Assembly: GCA_021107945.1 (NCBI GenBank)
Contig: JAIORV010000012.1
Span: 1-64,000, forward strand
Origin: Vulcanimicrobiota bacterium
Lineage (GTDB): Bacteria; Vulcanimicrobiota; JAJTBE01
Length of the DNA stretch: 64,000 nucleotides
Reading direction: 5' to 3'
The position numbers and the translations under genes were made by a program. Shown here in pieces: positions 34,546 to 51,872 of the stretch; the stretch's first letter is position 1; each line of letters begins with the position of its first letter. The notes beneath the pieces were generated by a model that was not told where the DNA came from, ran no database searches, and saw only the letters and a program-made list of their open reading frames with translations.

Positions 34546-34797
34546 CTACTTTGCTTTTTCGAGAACATCAATGACCTTCCATCTTTTCCTGGCACTCAGG
34601 GGTCTTGACTCCTGAATCCTTACCCTGTCGCCGGTCTGGCATTCATTATTTTCATCATGCGCCATAAAGTTCTTCGTTTTCTTCACAATCTTCTTGTAAA
34701 TTGGATGTGCAAACTGTCTTTCGACAGTTACAACAACCGATTTATCCATTTTATCGCTTGTCACTACACCCGTTCTGATCTTACAACCGGATTTCAC
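34546..34797 (-). CDS. rpsQ: 30S ribosomal protein S17
   Basis: S17 of 83 residues ([20 protein letters not shown]) shows the conserved [19 protein letters not shown] and [23 protein letters not shown] 34797 is preferred because AAAGGGGT lies eight bases upstream and the N-terminus aligns with the family; a TTG at 34815 would add six residues. Confidence 0.95.
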
Positions 34798-34874
34798 TTC
34801 ATTTACCCCTTTCAATACGGATCCTGGAGGAAGGAAGTCAGAGGTCGGACTGCGGATTATCTATCGATCTTCCG

Positions 34875-35090
34875 CTATCCAGCTTCTGCCTTAAGTTCCC
34901 TTTCTCTTATGACCGTGTGCAATCTTGCAATTTGCCTTTTTAACTGTTGAATTCTGCTATAATCTTCAAGATGGCCTGTTGCCAATTGGAATCTAAGGTT
35001 AAATAACTCTTCCTTGGAGTCTCTTAACTTTTCCTTCAACTCCAGCGGTGTCATTTCACGCACTTTTTCAATAAATTCCTTAGTTTTCAC
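34875..35090 (-). CDS. rpmC: 50S ribosomal protein L29
   Basis: The two-helix protein at the exit tunnel starts [20 protein letters not shown] and contains [23 protein letters not shown] 35090 is favoured by the family alignment and AGGTGGT seven bases before it; ATG 35096 is an alternative. The start lies inside the 3' end of rplP, so coupling is likely. Confidence 0.93.
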
Positions 35091-45313: not shown

Positions 45314-45976
45314 CTAAAATCCGGGTCCGACTTCCCTCGCATACTCTTCCCTGGTATCTATATCTTTCAATATTCCCGGGTCATCTATATCAACTATCTT
45401 GATCCTGTCCCGATTTTTTTGAACTGCATACCTTGCGCCCTGATCCAGGGGGGATTCTTTCAAATCATCGAATATCTCCCGGGGGAAGAATACAGGGTGT
45501 CCTTTTCTATCGCCATAGCGGGGTAGAATTAGCTTTCCGGGATTTTCAAGAGCATATTTTACTATTCTCTCATATGTCTCCCTTTCAACAAGGGGATGAT
45601 CCACAAGACAAAGGAGTATTCCCGGGCAGTCCTCATCGATTTCTCCAAGCCCGCATATAAGTGATGACAATTGCCCGTTTTCAGGCGCGGGGTTTGTAAC
45701 AACAGTGCATCCGGTAGTGTCAATCCCTTCAAGGATTCTGTCCCTGTGATACCCCAGGACTATAATTATTTTTTCTGGAGTAATTGGTATATTTTTTATC
45801 CCATCCAGGATCCTTTCAAGGAATTTTCTTCCGTCCCCGGATCCGAGAAGAGCTTTGGGGGACCCCATCCTGCTGGACTCGCCAGCGGAGAGTATTACGG
45901 CGTTATAGGTGAATTTCTTCATTACTACATCCCTCTTCATTACTACATCCCTCTTCATTACTACATCCCTCTTCAT
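45314..45976 (-). CDS. MocA-like nucleotidyltransferase (NTP_transf_3) with tandem start modules
   Basis: The core (YNAVILSAGESSRMGSPKALL) is the GxxSxRMGxxK nucleotide-binding loop of MobA/MocA-type enzymes, which attach a nucleotide to molybdopterin or related groups. LLCLVDHPLV, GHPVFFP, LDQGARYAVQ and the C-terminal ILKDIDTREEY fit the MocA/YgfJ branch. The N-terminus is MKRDVV repeated three times, encoded by an 18-bp tandem repeat, so four ATGs precede the core, each with its own SD-like AGAGGG or AAGGAG. The first ATG overlaps the permease stop (TAATG at 45978-45974), so translational coupling is likely. The true substrate is uncertain; the cobalamin riboswitch upstream makes a B12 link possible. 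Confidence 0.85.
   Translation of the reverse strand: MKRDVVMKRDVVMKRDVVMKKFTYNAVILSAGESSRMGSPKALLGSGDGRKFLERILDGIKNIPITPEKIIIVLGYHRDRILEGIDTTGCTVVTNPAPENGQLSSLICGLGEIDEDCPGILLCLVDHPLVERETYERIVKYALENPGKLILPRYGDRKGHPVFFPREIFDDLKESPLDQGARYAVQKNRDRIKIVDIDDPGILKDIDTREEYAREVGPGF
45921..45974. repeat. 18-bp tandem repeat, three copies, at the start of the MocA-like gene
   Basis: Units attactacatccctcttc occupy 45921-45938, 45939-45956 and 45957-45974. On the minus strand each unit holds an ATG and, upstream of the next ATG, AGAGGG, so each is a potential start module. Confidence 0.9.
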
Positions 45977-47001
45977 TACATCTCCTTCTTCCTCTTCCTA
46001 TTCCTCAACAGATATAGAAAGAACGGCGCTCCCATGATTGCCGTAAGGACACCCACAGGAATCTCACGGGGCGATAGAATCGATCTTGCGGCCGTATCCA
46101 CCCACATCAGGTATATTGCGCCTGCAAGTGCCGATGTGGGGATTAGAATCCTGTGATCCGCTCCCACCACACGGCGAATGACATGGGGGATCATGAGCCC
46201 CACGAACCCAATCAATCCTGCGGCGGCTACAGATGCGGCGGTGACAAGTGATGCAAATATGATAATCAAATTCCTGATCCTCTCAACTTCCACACCCAAG
46301 TGCATTGCCGATTCATCTCCCAGAGTCAGGATATTGAGCGAATGAGACAGATACATTAATCCTGTAAAACCGATAATGAAATATATAAACAACATTGTGA
46401 CCTCGCTCCAACCAGCGGATCCAGTGCTTCCCATGAGCCAGAATATAACCTCCTGCATATTCTGCTTTGCCAGGGTGAGGAGAAATGAGACCATTGCCCA
46501 GAGGAACGAGCCCACCACAACTCCTGCAAGAAGGAATGTCTCCACGGGAACCCTGCCCCCAACAACGGATATGCGATATACAATGTACATTGCCAGTATC
46601 GCGCCCACAAATGCAAGGACGGCAATTGCAGAAATTCCAAGAAGACTTCCCCTGATGTTGAACACAATGGCAAAAACTCCCCCGACAGCGGCGCCGGCGG
46701 ACGTGCCCACAATGTACGGATCAGCAAGGGGATTGCGGAGGATTCCCTGGAATGCAGAACCTGCAAGGGCAAGAGATGCCCCCACAAACGCGGCGACAAG
46801 AATCCTGGGCAAGCGAAGATCCCATACTATCGTCTCAATGGGACTTTCAAGAAGATGTTTTCCTGTCAGTTTCGCAATAATTATCTTGTTTATCTCGCCA
46901 AAGGGAATTTTCTCCGAGCCAATATGAACACAAACCCACGTTGATGCGAAGGCTATTACAAGCAGGATTGAAGTTATGAGAGCGAGTTTTTTTATTAACA
47001 A
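45976..47001 (-). CDS. BtuC/FecCD family ABC transporter permease
   Basis: The 341-residue inner-membrane protein has about nine to ten segments and the FecCD signatures RLPRILVAAFVGASLALAGS, FQGILRNPLADPYIVGTSAG and GFVGLMIPHVIRRVVGADHR with the ATPase-contact loop. This family imports vitamin B12, haem and ferric siderophores. The riboswitch about 3 kb upstream on the same strand favours cobalamin. The binding-protein gene is upstream. No cognate ABC ATPase (btuD/fecE) is present in the locus. Confidence 0.92.
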   Translation of the reverse strand: MLIKKLALITSILLVIAFASTWVCVHIGSEKIPFGEINKIIIAKLTGKHLLESPIETIVWDLRLPRILVAAFVGASLALAGSAFQGILRNPLADPYIVGTSAGAAVGGVFAIVFNIRGSLLGISAIAVLAFVGAILAMYIVYRISVVGGRVPVETFLLAGVVVGSFLWAMVSFLLTLAKQNMQEVIFWLMGSTGSAGWSEVTMLFIYFIIGFTGLMYLSHSLNILTLGDESAMHLGVEVERIRNLIIIFASLVTAASVAAAGLIGFVGLMIPHVIRRVVGADHRILIPTSALAGAIYLMWVDTAARSILSPREIPVGVLTAIMGAPFFLYLLRNRKRKKEM

Positions 47002-47043
47002 ATTATTCTCCTGGTTAATGGGAAATGGGAAATGGGAAACGGG

Positions 47044-47252
47044 AAAATACCGGGATTTCGAGGTTTTTCGATACCCTCACCTCAGTTATCCGTTCTCCAA
47101 ATCCCTTTGTGGTCTTTGTGGTCTTTTCGGTAAAAAAACACATCTGTCATTCGTTTTCCGTCAGCATTATCGGGACGAGGACGTCCCTCCTACAAATGTT
47201 TTCCTTATTTCCTTATTTCCTTAGAGGCATAATTCCTTATTCCGTTATCCGG
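47044..47252. repeat. 209-bp direct repeat, copy 1
   Basis: This block (accgggatt...cggg) is repeated at 47444-47652, exactly 400 bases away, with only a few differences. It is a mosaic of smaller families: AGGTTTTTCGATACCCTC, 'ctttgtggtctttgtggtctttt', the GACGTCCCTCCTACA element (47167-47194) and ttccttatttccttatttcc. Confidence 0.9.
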
Positions 47253-47443
47253 AAGACGCTGAAGCGTCTAAAAGCGCGGGGAGTGGGGTTGCTCCTATTC
47301 CCCCGGTTAAAACCGGGGGTTATTCTAATGGAGGTTTAAAAACCTCCACTACCCAGCTTCCGGTCTCCGTCATCATTCATTTTCTTCGTGTTCTCCGTGG
47401 CTTCGTGGTTAAAGGGAAATGGGAAAAGAGAAAAGGGAAAAGG
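47253..47443. repeat. Palindromic repeats and GGGAAA tract between the direct repeats
   Basis: This holds 'gacgctgaagcgtc' (47256-47269), CCCCCGGTTAAAACCGGGGG (47299-47318), GGAGGTTTAAAAACCTCC (47331-47348), a 'cttcgtgttctccgtggcttcgtggtt' tract, and GGGAAA repeats at 47413-47447. The same stem-loop series occurs at 48700-48798. Confidence 0.8.
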
Positions 47444-47652
47444 GAAATACCGGGATTACGAGGTTTTTCGATACTCTCACCTCAGTTATCCGTTCTCCAA
47501 ATCCCTTTGTGGTCTTTGTGGTCTTTGCGGTGAAAAAACACATCTGTCATTCGTTTTCCGTCAGCATTATCGGGACGAGGACGTCCCTCCTACAAATGTT
47601 TTCCTTATTTCCTTATTTCCTTAGAGGCATAATTCCTTATTCCATTATCCGG
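47444..47652. repeat. 209-bp direct repeat, copy 2, overlapping the end of the BtuF-like gene
   Basis: The second copy of the block at 47044. Its GACGTCCCTCCTACA element is at 47567-47594. Bases 47637-47652 lie inside the binding-protein gene and encode its last residues and stop. Confidence 0.9.
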
Positions 47653-48635
47653 GTTTCATAATCCGCTATCCGTTTGTTGGGATAAAACCAGTTATAAAGC
47701 TTCCTGCAGGCCTCGAAAAGCCTGGGTGTGGGACGAACCATTATATCGGGATTAATACTGTAAACCCGTCCGTTCTTCACCGCCCTGATATTTCTCCAGT
47801 GCTTTTCTTTGATAAAATCTTTCCTGGAGGACGTGGTTAATATTATTACATCGGGATTTCTGAGTAGAAGCGTCTCCCTGTTGATCTGTGGATAACCGGT
47901 CATATCGCCGGCAATGTTGATGCCCCCTGCATTTTCAATCGTGTAATTGATGAATGTGCCGGATCCCGCGGTCATCAAAGGGCTGTTCCAAATTTCAATA
48001 AACACCCGCGGTTTTTTCTTGTCAGGTACATTTCTTATGCGCCGGGTGATTATACCCATATTCTTTTTCATTTTGAGGAGGAGATCGGATGATTTTCTTT
48101 CTGAACCCACGGACTTGCCAATCAACTTGGTTGATTGAACAAAATTGTCATATGTATCCGATTTAACGGCAAGAACGGTGATGCCCAGATTCCTGAGTTT
48201 GCTTACATCCCTTGAATACAGAGTGGTTTCAACTATCACGAGATCAGGTCTGAGGGCAACTATTTTTTCATAGTTGAGATATATATCCCCCACTTTTTCC
48301 TTGCCTTTTGTTTCGGGGGGGTAGTCGCTGGCACTTGAGACCGCAATGATTCTACTTTCTTCCGCAAGTGATAATGTAACCTCCGTGGCGCTTGGGCCGA
48401 GGGTTATGATTCTTTTTGGACTTGAACTTAAGAGGATGTTTTGTCCGCTGATGTCAGTAATTCTGCGGGGGAATTTTGAAGATCGAGCCGTCCCTGTTGT
48501 AATAAAACATATTATTAGTATGAAGAAAAATGAAAAAAAGGAAATCACACTCATATGGGATTGAAGTATGTAACCATATGAGATGTGGGATTCTGTTATT
48601 TTTGTTGTTTTTTCTTCAGGACTTTCTTTTTTCAT
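47637..48635 (-). CDS. BtuF/FecB-like ABC substrate-binding protein
   Basis: The mature part shows the class III binding-protein pattern: PKRIITLGPSATEVTLSLAE, VGDIYLNYEKIVALRPDLVI, VLAVKSDTYDNFVQSTKLIG and later NAGGINIAGDMTGYPQINRE, followed by the ending VRPTPRLFEACRKLYNWFYP. It would capture cobalamin or a similar chelate outside the membrane for the downstream permease. A hydrophobic export segment (SFFSFFFILIICFITTGTA) starts near residue 31. The first 27 residues are unusual, so ATG 48554 may be the real start; neither has a good SD. The final codons are supplied by the 209-bp repeat. Confidence 0.88.
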   Translation of the reverse strand: MKKESPEEKTTKITESHISYGYILQSHMSVISFFSFFFILIICFITTGTARSSKFPRRITDISGQNILLSSSPKRIITLGPSATEVTLSLAEESRIIAVSSASDYPPETKGKEKVGDIYLNYEKIVALRPDLVIVETTLYSRDVSKLRNLGITVLAVKSDTYDNFVQSTKLIGKSVGSERKSSDLLLKMKKNMGIITRRIRNVPDKKKPRVFIEIWNSPLMTAGSGTFINYTIENAGGINIAGDMTGYPQINRETLLLRNPDVIILTTSSRKDFIKEKHWRNIRAVKNGRVYSINPDIMVRPTPRLFEACRKLYNWFYPNKRIADYETRIME

Positions 48636-49005
48636 GGTTGTTGACGATCTCCATAATATTGTTTATTGATGGAAATGATCCGGTTCCTATAGTCATGGAA
48701 GCCGCTAAAGCGGCTGAAGTAGTGAGGGGCGGTGGATTCCTTTCGTTCCCCCGGATGAATCCGGGGGTTATTCTCATGGAGGTTTGAAAACCTCCGCAGA
48801 CAATGTTTTCTCTCCGGTTATCCTCTGCGAACTCAGCGGTCTCTGCGTTGAAAAACCACTTGTTCGATAGTCCCAAAACCTCCGTTACCTCTGGGAGGTT
48901 TGAAAACCTCCGCAGACAATGTTTTCTCTCCGGTTATCCTCTGCGGACTCTGCGATCTCTGCGTTGAAAAACCACTTGTTCGATAGTCCCAAAACCTCCG
49001 TTACC
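48636..49005. repeat. Palindromes and a 116-bp tandem duplication between the unknown gene and the BtuF-like gene
   Basis: A stem-loop series (gccgctaaagcggc at 48701-48714, CCCCCGGATGAATCCGGGGG at 48751-48770) leads into two tandem copies of a 116-bp block at 48778-48893 and 48894-49007. Each starts with the hairpin GGAGGTTTGAAAACCTCC and contains 'ctctgcg..ctc.gcg.tctctgcgttgaaaaaccact'. The second copy reaches the stop codon of the unknown gene. Confidence 0.9.
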
Positions 49006-49887
49006 TCATTTACTGAATATAAAATGTGGCAGTCCGGTGCGGACGTATGATATCAGGCCAGGTATGTCGAACTCATCCATCTTGAACTCGACCTTCTTTC
49101 CTTTTTGACAACTCTCGATTTCAAGGGTGTTGTTAATCCCATTTAAAATAATCGCTTCTTCCTCGCTGTCACAGGCGAACAAAAACCAATCAGGCTTCCT
49201 CGGGGAGGACTTTTCCGGTCTTTTTCCCGTAAGATACTTCTTGGCAATGCGCATGTCAATCTCATCAAGTACATTAATTCCATCTTTCAGAAAATGAAAG
49301 TCATTATCAAAATCTTTGTGAGTTGAATGAAATCCGACAATTGCAAGACGATCCTCACCAAGTATCCTTAGCTTTATCGTGGCATCATTCCATCCGGCTT
49401 CTTCACCGAACGATTGAAACGAGAGTGTTATAGATATTTCACACCGGTAATATCGCTTTTCATCGGTAAAAAAGAACCAGTTCTTTACCGGGTAATGAAC
49501 TTTGCATGAACTTACCAGTTTTGTCACCTCAAGGACACCTGCCCTGTCCTCTTTCTCATGTCCGTCAAGAATCGTAGGCTCAACACCGAGGAAGTCGCCG
49601 AATATGCCGTCAAACTCCGACTGATCCAGGGGATCGGTTGATTCATTCAGATTTGATGCTTCAATCTGCGCCTCGTCGAAATAATCGAACAACCTCTCGC
49701 AGTCTTTCTTTTTCCCAAAATTGGTGATCCTCATAATTGTACGATATCTGCTTGCTTCTGAATTTATCCAGTGGTCAACCTCAACTCCGTACCAATATCG
49801 AAGAACGGTAAGGATATTGTCCAGTTCCGCAAGGGTTATTGGAACCCAGCTTTCGGGAAGTTTTTCTTCCTTTTTCCAGAATACCAA
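49006..49887 (-). CDS. Protein of unknown function under a cobalamin riboswitch
   Basis: I do not recognise this 293-residue protein. It starts at TTG 49887 (MVFWKKEEKLPESWVPITLA) with GGAGGT eight bases upstream. It has no signal peptide or membrane segment and is rich in acidic and aromatic residues, with alternating strands such as YYRCEISITLSFQSF and ATIKLRILGEDRLAIVGFHS. No metal-binding or nucleotide-binding motif is clear. It is the first gene after the cobalamin aptamer and its terminator, 18 bases past the T tract, so its expression should fall when B12 is plentiful. That suggests a role in corrinoid uptake, salvage or in a B12-independent alternative, but this is inference. Confidence 0.75.
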   Translation of the reverse strand: MVFWKKEEKLPESWVPITLAELDNILTVLRYWYGVEVDHWINSEASRYRTIMRITNFGKKKDCERLFDYFDEAQIEASNLNESTDPLDQSEFDGIFGDFLGVEPTILDGHEKEDRAGVLEVTKLVSSCKVHYPVKNWFFFTDEKRYYRCEISITLSFQSFGEEAGWNDATIKLRILGEDRLAIVGFHSTHKDFDNDFHFLKDGINVLDEIDMRIAKKYLTGKRPEKSSPRKPDWFLFACDSEEEAIILNGINNTLEIESCQKGKKVEFKMDEFDIPGLISYVRTGLPHFIFSK

Positions 49888-49905
49888 GATCTTCTACCTC
49901 CTGTA

Positions 49906-49938
49906 TTAAAAAAACCTCATCCCGGACAGGGTTGAGGT
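49906..49938 (-). terminator. Intrinsic terminator of the cobalamin riboswitch
   Basis: Read on the minus strand, ACCTCA (49938-49933) and TGAGGT (49919-49914), with inner CCC/GGG pairs, close a hairpin followed by seven T residues. It lies between the aptamer and the SD of the unknown gene, the normal place for a transcriptional riboswitch platform. Confidence 0.85.
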
Positions 49939-50135
49939 CTGAGTTTTGATTCTCGCCCCGGACCCTGACTCCGGGGTCCTCATCGAATACAGCTTTTTGG
50001 TCAGGTTTCCTGGCTTGTGGATCATTGCTTTCCGGCGCCTTCCCTCTTTCAAGGTGACATTATGCCGGATTGCTCCCCACTCACAGTGGCGGGCACCGCA
50101 TCGGATTCTAACCGACTTCCCTGTGCCTATAGCTG
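49939..50135 (-). promoter_or_regulatory. Cobalamin (adenosylcobalamin-type) riboswitch
   Basis: The minus strand carries the conserved core: GGGAAGTCGGTTAGAATCCG (around 50122-50103), then GCGGTGCCCGCCACTGTGA, GTCACC...GGGAAGGC, and the B12 box AGCCAGGAAACCTGACC at 50015-49999. Stem P1 pairs CAGCT (50135-50131) with AGCTG (49994-49990). A further strong hairpin (CCCCGGA...TCCGGGG, about 49978-49955) may give the L13 kissing partner or antiterminator. B12 binding would favour the terminator at 49906-49938 and repress the downstream unknown gene and possibly the BtuF/BtuC genes. Confidence 0.93.
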
Positions 50136-50152
50136 AAAATATTCAATTTTAA

Positions 50153-50666
50153 TTCGAGTACATTATACATTATTGGCAGGATTAATACAAGGCCGATACT
50201 TGAAAAATCAGTTGACATTGAGGGTATCGAAAAACCCTATAAATTTAGTTATTTGAAGTATTTAATTAACCACAGAGGACACAGAGAGATCAACGTTTTT
50301 TCTTTAGTTATCCTCTGCGGACTTCGCGATCTCTGCGGTGAAAAAAAAATGTCATCAATAACTGGAAACAGCTTATTTCAAATATACATTTTAATGGCAG
50401 GAAGATCCAGGGGAAATTTGGAATTAAACAGTATCTCGAATTTTTTCTGATGAATAATATTGGATGCCACTCAAATAATCGTATAATTATTCAGCCCCCT
50501 AAAATGCTTGTCTTTCTATAAGGAAGAATTTAAAATAAACTGTAAAAAATGCAAATTTTTAACCTTTGTGGTCTTTGTGGTCTTTGTGGTGAATAGATAT
50601 ACGGGAATTAACCTGAAAGGAAATCTACAGTTTTAGTAGAAATTTTAGGGGGAGAAAAAGAGGCAA
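50153..50666. repeat. Repeat-rich non-coding stretch upstream of the PTS IIB gene
   Basis: It contains an inverted AGGTTTTTCGATACCCTC copy (about 50219-50236), 'aaccacagaggacacagagag' (50269-50289), 'ctctgcggacttcgcgatctctgcggtgaaaaaaaaatgtcatcaataactggaaacagc' (about 50313-50372) and 'ctttgtggtctttgtggtctttgtggtg' (50563-50592). No gene is supported. Confidence 0.65.
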
Positions 50667-50744
50667 TACTTTTTACTCAAAACCTTTCTATTGCAGGAGA
50701 TTTAGTTAAAAAGCTTGTTTTTGCCATTTTCTAAAAATGGCTTA
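50667..50744. repeat. Hairpin-bearing dispersed element, copy 1
   Basis: The last 44 bases (tttagttaaaaagc...ggctta) contain the perfect hairpin CCATTTT-CTA-AAAATGG at 50724-50740. The block recurs in reverse at 60899-60980 with about two differences in the last 43 bases and looser similarity over 80. Confidence 0.88.
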
Positions 50745-50762
50745 AAGGAAAGGAGACCTACC

Positions 50763-51080
50763 TTGTCCTCAAAGAAAAAAATTCTGGTGGTATGCTCGTC
50801 GGGTATGTCAACCAGTCTTCTTGTCAAAGCTATGCGAAAGGCGGCCGATAAGGAAGGTTACGAGGTTGAGATTTCCTCCGCTCCGATAGTCGGCGCTGAG
50901 GATCTCATGCCTGAAACTGATGCGGTTCTTGTGGGACCACAGATGAGACATCGATTCGAGGAAATCGAGCGAATCTTTGCAGTAGCCGATGTGCCGGCGA
51001 AACTTGTGCCACCACAGGTCTATGGGCTTATGGATGGAAAGGCCGCTCTTGAGATAGCAAAAAAAATGATTATGGAGTGA
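50763..51080 (+). CDS. Orphan PTS system IIB component, lactose/cellobiose type
   Basis: The 105-residue protein has the IIB phosphocysteine loop VVCSSGMSTSLLVKAM near residue 10, VGPQMRHRF and the ending ALEIAKKM, as in cellobiose-type IIB proteins that pass phosphate to an incoming sugar. TTG 50763 is preferred because AAAGGAG lies upstream and IIB proteins start right before KKKILVVCSSG; the frame is open to 50715 but that part is encoded by the hairpin repeat. No IIA or IIC gene is nearby. Six bases separate it from a membrane-protein gene. A signalling rather than a transport role is possible. Confidence 0.88.
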   Translation: MSSKKKILVVCSSGMSTSLLVKAMRKAADKEGYEVEISSAPIVGAEDLMPETDAVLVGPQMRHRFEEIERIFAVADVPAKLVPPQVYGLMDGKAALEIAKKMIME

Positions 51081-51086
51081 TATAAA

Positions 51087-51872
51087 ATGGATACTCCCTT
51101 TCAATCAGGATGGCTAATGGGAGTGAAGTGTTTTGTATTTGCTCTTTTAGCGGTATGGCTTTATTTTAGAGTTACAAAACAAGACATATTTCTTCTTCTT
51201 GCAGGAGCACTGGGACTGAACGGAATCTTCGCGTTGATTTTCTTTTCGGGATCGAAAATACATATAATTGGAATCATCCTGAACGCAATTCCGTTTTTTG
51301 CGGTGCTTCTAATTGCTAATGGAATTTTATGCTCTAAAGCATTTTATGAAATCACGCGTCATGGAATTTTTCCGGCGGATAAGATGGTGGATCCCGATAA
51401 AGGCCTACAATTATACTTTTCCGGCATCATGGCTTTCATACTATTTTTCATGGCCAAATTTTCAATGAACGATGTTTTCAAGCATCTTGTTGAAAAAGGC
51501 GGATTAAAGCTCGACATGGCGGCATATATCATTTACTTTCTGCTGATAGCCGGTATTGCGTACCTCACACAATACGTCATCCCCTGGAAAGAGACGCCGG
51601 ACACATTCGTCACGGTAGGCATAAAACAGGAAGCTGTTGATGTATTAAGTATTACGGGTGATGTCACACTTCCCGAGAAGATCGCCGTGCCTACTCTATT
51701 TTACCTGATATTCTTCCTACTACCTTACCTTATCAAACCGGCGAATCAGAAGAGCGATACGGATATCGTCGGCCTTGTTATTATTGCCGTGCTAATAGGC
51801 TCGGTAGTATGGATTGAACTTATAAAAAAAGGCGGAAACAAGGATAAAGATAAATCAGTGAAACTGGGATAG
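51087..51872 (+). CDS. Polytopic membrane protein of unknown function
   Basis: The 261-residue product has about seven hydrophobic segments (for example VFALLAVWLYF, FLLLAGALGLNGIFALIF, IIGIILNAIPFFAVLLIANG, YIIYFLLIAGIAYL, PTLFYLIFFLLPYLI and DIVGLVIIAVLIGSVVWIEL) and a short lysine-rich cytoplasmic tail. It does not look like a PTS IIC. It follows the IIB gene by six bases, which suggests co-translation and perhaps joint action. Function unknown. Confidence 0.75.
   Translation: MDTPFQSGWLMGVKCFVFALLAVWLYFRVTKQDIFLLLAGALGLNGIFALIFFSGSKIHIIGIILNAIPFFAVLLIANGILCSKAFYEITRHGIFPADKMVDPDKGLQLYFSGIMAFILFFMAKFSMNDVFKHLVEKGGLKLDMAAYIIYFLLIAGIAYLTQYVIPWKETPDTFVTVGIKQEAVDVLSITGDVTLPEKIAVPTLFYLIFFLLPYLIKPANQKSDTDIVGLVIIAVLIGSVVWIELIKKGGNKDKDKSVKLG

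Follow-up and report, generated by a model that had tools for sequence, protein, structure and literature searches.

On the minus strand of the 64,000-nucleotide stretch of Vulcanimicrobiota DNA analyzed here (contig JAIORV010000012.1, positions 1 to 64,000; the window), a full-length cobalamin riboswitch is followed by a 293-codon orphan gene, ORF293, and then by homologs of btuF and btuC. We consider it likely that this is a B12-uptake locus under an attenuating riboswitch, with its BtuD encoded elsewhere in the genome and with ORF293 as a lineage-restricted gene between the switch and btuF. Both the riboswitch and the uptake genes belong to a known kind; the orphan ORF293 is the only unexplained part.

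The riboswitch and its expression platform

An Rfam scan of the window gave a single match, to RF00174, which is full length, covering all 189 model positions, and scores above the gathering cut-off of 31.5 bits (Table 1). The B12 box, GCCAGGAAACCTGACC, lies within its aligned core. The sequence-only reading had placed a cobalamin aptamer with a B12 box and a pairing P1 stem on the minus strand at 49.98-50.14 kb; the covariance model confirms the aptamer and extends it slightly beyond that interval. A search with the same model detected no second Cobalamin riboswitch in the rest of the 5.56-Mb genome. The P1-like stem closes the aptamer with moderate support, because 2.6% of mononucleotide shuffles equal its duplex energy (-13.5 kcal/mol). 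Inspection of the platform by eye did not reveal a convincing complement to the L5 loop, UUAGAAU, of the kind expected for an L5-L13 kissing loop. The locus shares with other RF00174 riboswitches the full-length match, the B12 box, the transcription-terminator platform and the place ahead of B12 uptake genes, and it differs from them in having an orphan protein as the first gene. The riboswitch is genuine and of the ordinary full-length kind.

The platform contains two mutually exclusive helices, an antiterminator and a terminator. As the earlier reading had it, a terminator stands directly before the Shine-Dalgarno sequence; its hairpin ends in seven T. The antiterminator is an element additional to that description. 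It comprises 12 pairs and consumes part of the 5' strand and the loop of the terminator, and its duplex energy, computed for the upstream stretch against the terminator strand, is equalled by 0.25% of mononucleotide shuffles. When the antiterminator is forced, the platform folds at -28.5 kcal/mol as compared with -31.7 kcal/mol for the terminated state, a gap of ~3 kcal/mol. The platform as a whole is more stable than shuffled sequences (z -2.24). A further hairpin, CCCCGGA/UCCGGGG, cannot coexist with the antiterminator. The assignment of the terminator is based on the folding results and not on the automatic terminator scan, in whose generic listing it is absent because its interrupted stem does not fit the scan pattern.

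Because the exclusive helices, the AGGAGG sequence and the TTG start all lie downstream of the aptamer, the riboswitch very probably gates ORF293 by transcription termination; the position of the gene and the platform both support the control of ORF293 proposed earlier. When cobalamin is scarce, CCCGGA..CAGGGU would pair with ACCCUGUCCGGG, the terminator would be blocked, and the polymerase would enter ORF293 and probably continue into btuF-btuC. Binding of cobalamin would stabilize the aptamer and the P1 stem, the CCCCGGA/UCCGGGG hairpin would displace the antiterminator, and the terminator would halt transcription. This direction of the ligand effect, with ORF293 off at high cobalamin, is the one that the terminator architecture and established knowledge of the class would predict.

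Table 1. Features of the riboswitch-ORF293-btu locus, in window coordinates
Feature	Position	Strand	Basis or remark
Cobalamin riboswitch aptamer (RF00174)	49983-50165	-	Rfam, 85.5 bits, E 1.1e-19, model positions 1-189
P1-like stem, 5' strand, TTGAATA....CAGCT with 4-nt bulge	50131-50146	-	Folding and duplex energy
P1-like stem, partner strand, AGCTGTATTCGA	49983-49994	-	Folding and duplex energy
Antiterminator, 5' strand, CCCGGAGUCAGGGU (CCCGGA..CAGGGU)	49962-49975	-	Folding, shuffles
Antiterminator, partner strand, ACCCUGUCCGGG	49921-49932	-	Folding, shuffles
Alternative hairpin, CCCCGGA/UCCGGGG	49956-49976	-	Folding; mutually exclusive with antiterminator
Intrinsic terminator, stem GACCUCAACCC/GGGAUGAGGUU and seven U	49908-49939	-	-15.2 kcal/mol; sequence
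Shine-Dalgarno sequence, AGGAGG	49897-49902	-	Sequence; 9 nt ahead of TTG start
ORF293, orphan protein, 293 aa	49006-49887	-	Codon usage; TTG start at 49887; 34 kDa, pI 5.0, no hydrophobic segment
Two tandem 116-nt intergenic repeats, ORF293-btuF gap	48773-49004		Repeat family D3
BtuF-like periplasmic binding protein	47637-48635	-	PF01497, E 4.2e-29; NCBIfam BtuF, 1.9e-32, below its cut-off
BtuC-like FecCD permease	45976-47001	-	PF01032, E 5.4e-94; best NCBIfam model BtuC, 1.3e-97, below its cut-off
MocA/MobA-like nucleotidyltransferase, abuts btuC	45314-45976	-	PF12804, E 1e-32; TIGR03310, 1.7e-40, below its cut-off

ORF293 as an orphan gene

The in-frame codon score of ORF293 is 0.268 bits per codon as compared with 0.187-0.375 for 18 native genes of the window, values that are slightly flattered since the score was trained on these same genes; the other two forward frames across ORF293 score ~0. 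ORF293 thus has the coding character of the native genes. The lack of homologs, together with the position of btuF directly after the riboswitch in relatives, would also fit a locus in which ORF293 is not a gene and the riboswitch leader extends to btuF, but we regard this as very improbable given 293 unbroken codons, native usage confined to one frame and a strong Shine-Dalgarno sequence. ORF293 is a real gene that is restricted to its lineage, and its product is probably cytosolic because it has no hydrophobic stretch.

In agreement with the sequence-only reading, the protein belongs to no known family: no match was obtained in Pfam, NCBIfam, PHROGs, PADLOC or the PDB. No homologs were found in 149 genomes of the phylum (148 others and its own), none among plasmids or phages, and none in GTDB genomes or viral contigs by a seeded scan, which reaches close relatives only. 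AlphaFold models computed from the single sequence, for the whole protein and for residues 110-293, both had a pLDDT of 35-36 and were unusable. A segment of 43 residues (194-236) aligned to AF_0924 (PF22185; PDB 3dt5) with E values of 0.009 in Pfam and 0.037 in the PDB, but the score of 16.5 bits compares with a gathering value of 27 and the alignment covers only the C-terminal third of the profile; equal scores were reached by unrelated frames, one of them with five stops, and the resemblance was rejected as chance. Weak matches in four genomes of the phylum (G049, G003, G092 and G036; E 0.01-0.3) were likewise rejected as homologs, since the three of the four that were inspected lie in unrelated genes or unlikely frames.

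Uptake genes, relatives and cobalamin physiology

Cobalamin riboswitch regulons comprise biosynthesis, B12 transport, cobalt transport and B12-independent isozymes (PMC3766115). Here, a binding protein, a FecCD permease and a MocA-like gene lie downstream on the same strand with no ABC ATPase beside them, all as read earlier. The BtuF-like protein is 36-42% identical and the BtuC-like permease 48-51% identical to their homologs in three other genomes of the phylum (G003, G004 and G017). No other convincing FecCD protein was found in the genome; two weaker FecCD matches, located beside ABC ATPase hits on contigs C51 and C65, look like metal-type ABC-3 permeases. The riboswitch and the best NCBIfam models, whose scores are below their equivalog cut-offs, point to cobalamin as the putative substrate of the importer.

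The ATPase absent from the locus is accounted for by an unlinked gene on contig C31, whose product ranks first among the FepC/BtuD-type ATPases of the genome, is 42-46% identical to the BtuD proteins of the three relatives and is their best match among the twelve top ABC hits. The BtuCDF set is therefore complete, with btuF and btuC in the window and btuD on C31, and a transporter operating without an ATPase was rejected. The earlier observation that no ATPase adjoins the locus stands, but it is not a sign of an unusual transporter.

In the same three relatives (G017, G003 and G004; loci L075, L076 and L078), btuF, btuC and btuD form a compact series behind the Cobalamin riboswitch, which btuF follows without an intervening gene. 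The present locus shares with these the riboswitch and the BtuF and BtuC homologs, and it differs in having ORF293 first, repeats between the genes and btuD on another contig. Because btuF comes first in all three, the present arrangement is most likely derived, with ORF293 inserted and btuD relocated. Across 29 riboswitch loci of the phylum, the recognizable first genes, assigned by eye from translations without profile search, were ribonucleotide reductase-like, TonB receptor-like, btuF, btuC, ExbB/D-like and adenosyltransferase-like. In one further genome (G016, contig C32, 27566-35061; locus L003), a 7.5-kb segment carries four Cobalamin riboswitches, including a back-to-back pair (34640-34834 on the minus strand and 34862-35061 on the plus strand); the gene after the plus-strand member of this pair has a start that resembles the ATP-cone of a ribonucleotide reductase.

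The gap between ORF293 and btuF is ~370 bp and contains repeats, and that between btuF and btuC is ~635 bp; for this reason, a single ORF293-btuF-btuC transcript is uncertain, and readthrough from ORF293 into btuF is an inference. It is possible, if doubtful, that btuF-btuC is driven by its own promoter and that ORF293 is the sole target of the riboswitch: the separating DNA is rich in repeats and includes an inverted repeat (48748-48767), but the riboswitch stands immediately ahead of btuF in the three relatives, and a crude scan listed no minus-strand promoter-like site in the gap. Intergenic repeats, comprising 218-nt and 116-nt direct repeats and units of the CGCAGAG/CACAAAG type, fill positions 47035-47652, 48773-49004, 50291-50345 and 50554-50602 of the window and so lie on either side of the riboswitch-ORF293 unit.

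The genome (98.6% complete, in 215 contigs) yielded neither CobU nor CobS; at this completeness the absences are strong, not absolute. BtuR is clearly present, and the B12-binding domain is matched at 32 places, most of them in frames of ~450-560 aa, the typical size of B12-binding radical SAM enzymes. With no CobU or CobS found, many B12-binding proteins and a BtuR, the organism looks like a heavy cobalamin user that depends on uptake, a probable scavenger. The locus would thus serve B12 uptake in a bacterium that is probably unable to finish its own cobalamin synthesis. The MocA-like gene of the sequence-only reading is indeed there, but a CobY-type salvage role for it is unlikely given that CobS and CobU were not found. 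The start of the MocA-like gene is ambiguous because an 18-nt tandem repeat, MKRDVVMKRDVVMKRDVVMKK (45916-45979), brings an ATG with each copy. ORF293 as a stand-in adenosyltransferase was also discarded; an enzyme of the PduO type was not found, but the genome has a clear BtuR.

Possible roles of ORF293

As ORF293 is lodged between the riboswitch and btuF, its product would be made together with the uptake system at low B12. An uncharacterized gene under such a riboswitch is a recognized situation because there are precedents in Bacteroides, where uncharacterized genes of riboswitch-controlled btu operons were shown to encode cobamide-binding lipoproteins (PMC12751083). The present locus and the btu operons of Bacteroides thetaiotaomicron (btuG/H/J/K/L/X) have in common extra genes of unknown role in a riboswitch-controlled B12 uptake operon (PMC12751083). 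The accessory proteins of B. thetaiotaomicron that were shown to bind cobamides are lipoproteins, unlike ORF293. BtuX resembles ORF293 in that a signal peptide was likewise not detected (PMC12751083).

These precedents favor a new corrinoid-handling protein, such as a cytosolic B12 carrier or a loading or processing factor, that would work with BtuFC-BtuD and feed B12-dependent enzymes, as do the leading position of ORF293 behind the one Cobalamin riboswitch detected in the genome, its intact frame with native codon usage, and the richness of the genome in B12-binding domains. We nevertheless hold such a role to be doubtful: no relative of ORF293 was found in any of the searches even though the phylum commonly has Cobalamin riboswitches and btu genes, the Bacteroides binders are lipoproteins whereas ORF293 has no hydrophobic signal, and relatives that carry btuFCD lack ORF293 at the same place. 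The more specific proposal of a new family, with ORF293 as its founding member, of cytosolic proteins that handle corrinoids (e.g. carriers that load B12-binding enzymes) and are made only in B12 shortage appears unlikely. The earlier suggestion that such a first gene is a candidate for a new corrinoid uptake, salvage or B12-independent function is borne out as to its place under the riboswitch. That place is the one tie of ORF293 to corrinoids, and the btuF-first relatives suggest an insertion.

In our estimation, there is close to an even chance that ORF293 is a passenger: an orphan that arose recently or was acquired, came to sit between riboswitch and btuF, and owes its B12 control to position only. 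This reading agrees with the orphan status of ORF293, the ancestral-looking btuF-first order in the three relatives and the repeats on either side of the ORF293-riboswitch unit, but the retention of the full arrangement of attenuator, Shine-Dalgarno sequence and start, together with native codon usage, suggests that the gene is used. Since the btuF-first order suggests insertion, a new B12 function is no more likely than a passenger, and ORF293 would in our view most likely be either a passenger or a dispensable cytosolic protein made at times of starvation. If ORF293 does handle corrinoids, B12 uptake in this little-studied lineage would gain a cytosolic component; as a passenger, ORF293 would clearly exemplify the capture of an orphan gene by a riboswitch, relatives having kept the btuF-first order. 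Either way, the seemingly missing ATPase is accounted for.

Two other features of the contig may be recorded. A solitary PTS IIB-like protein and, after it, a membrane-like protein of 261 aa without a family are encoded divergently from the riboswitch unit (50715-51872, plus strand). Past 64 kb, the same contig encodes three long ankyrin-repeat proteins in a row, the largest of 975 aa (locus L052, 8619-13262).
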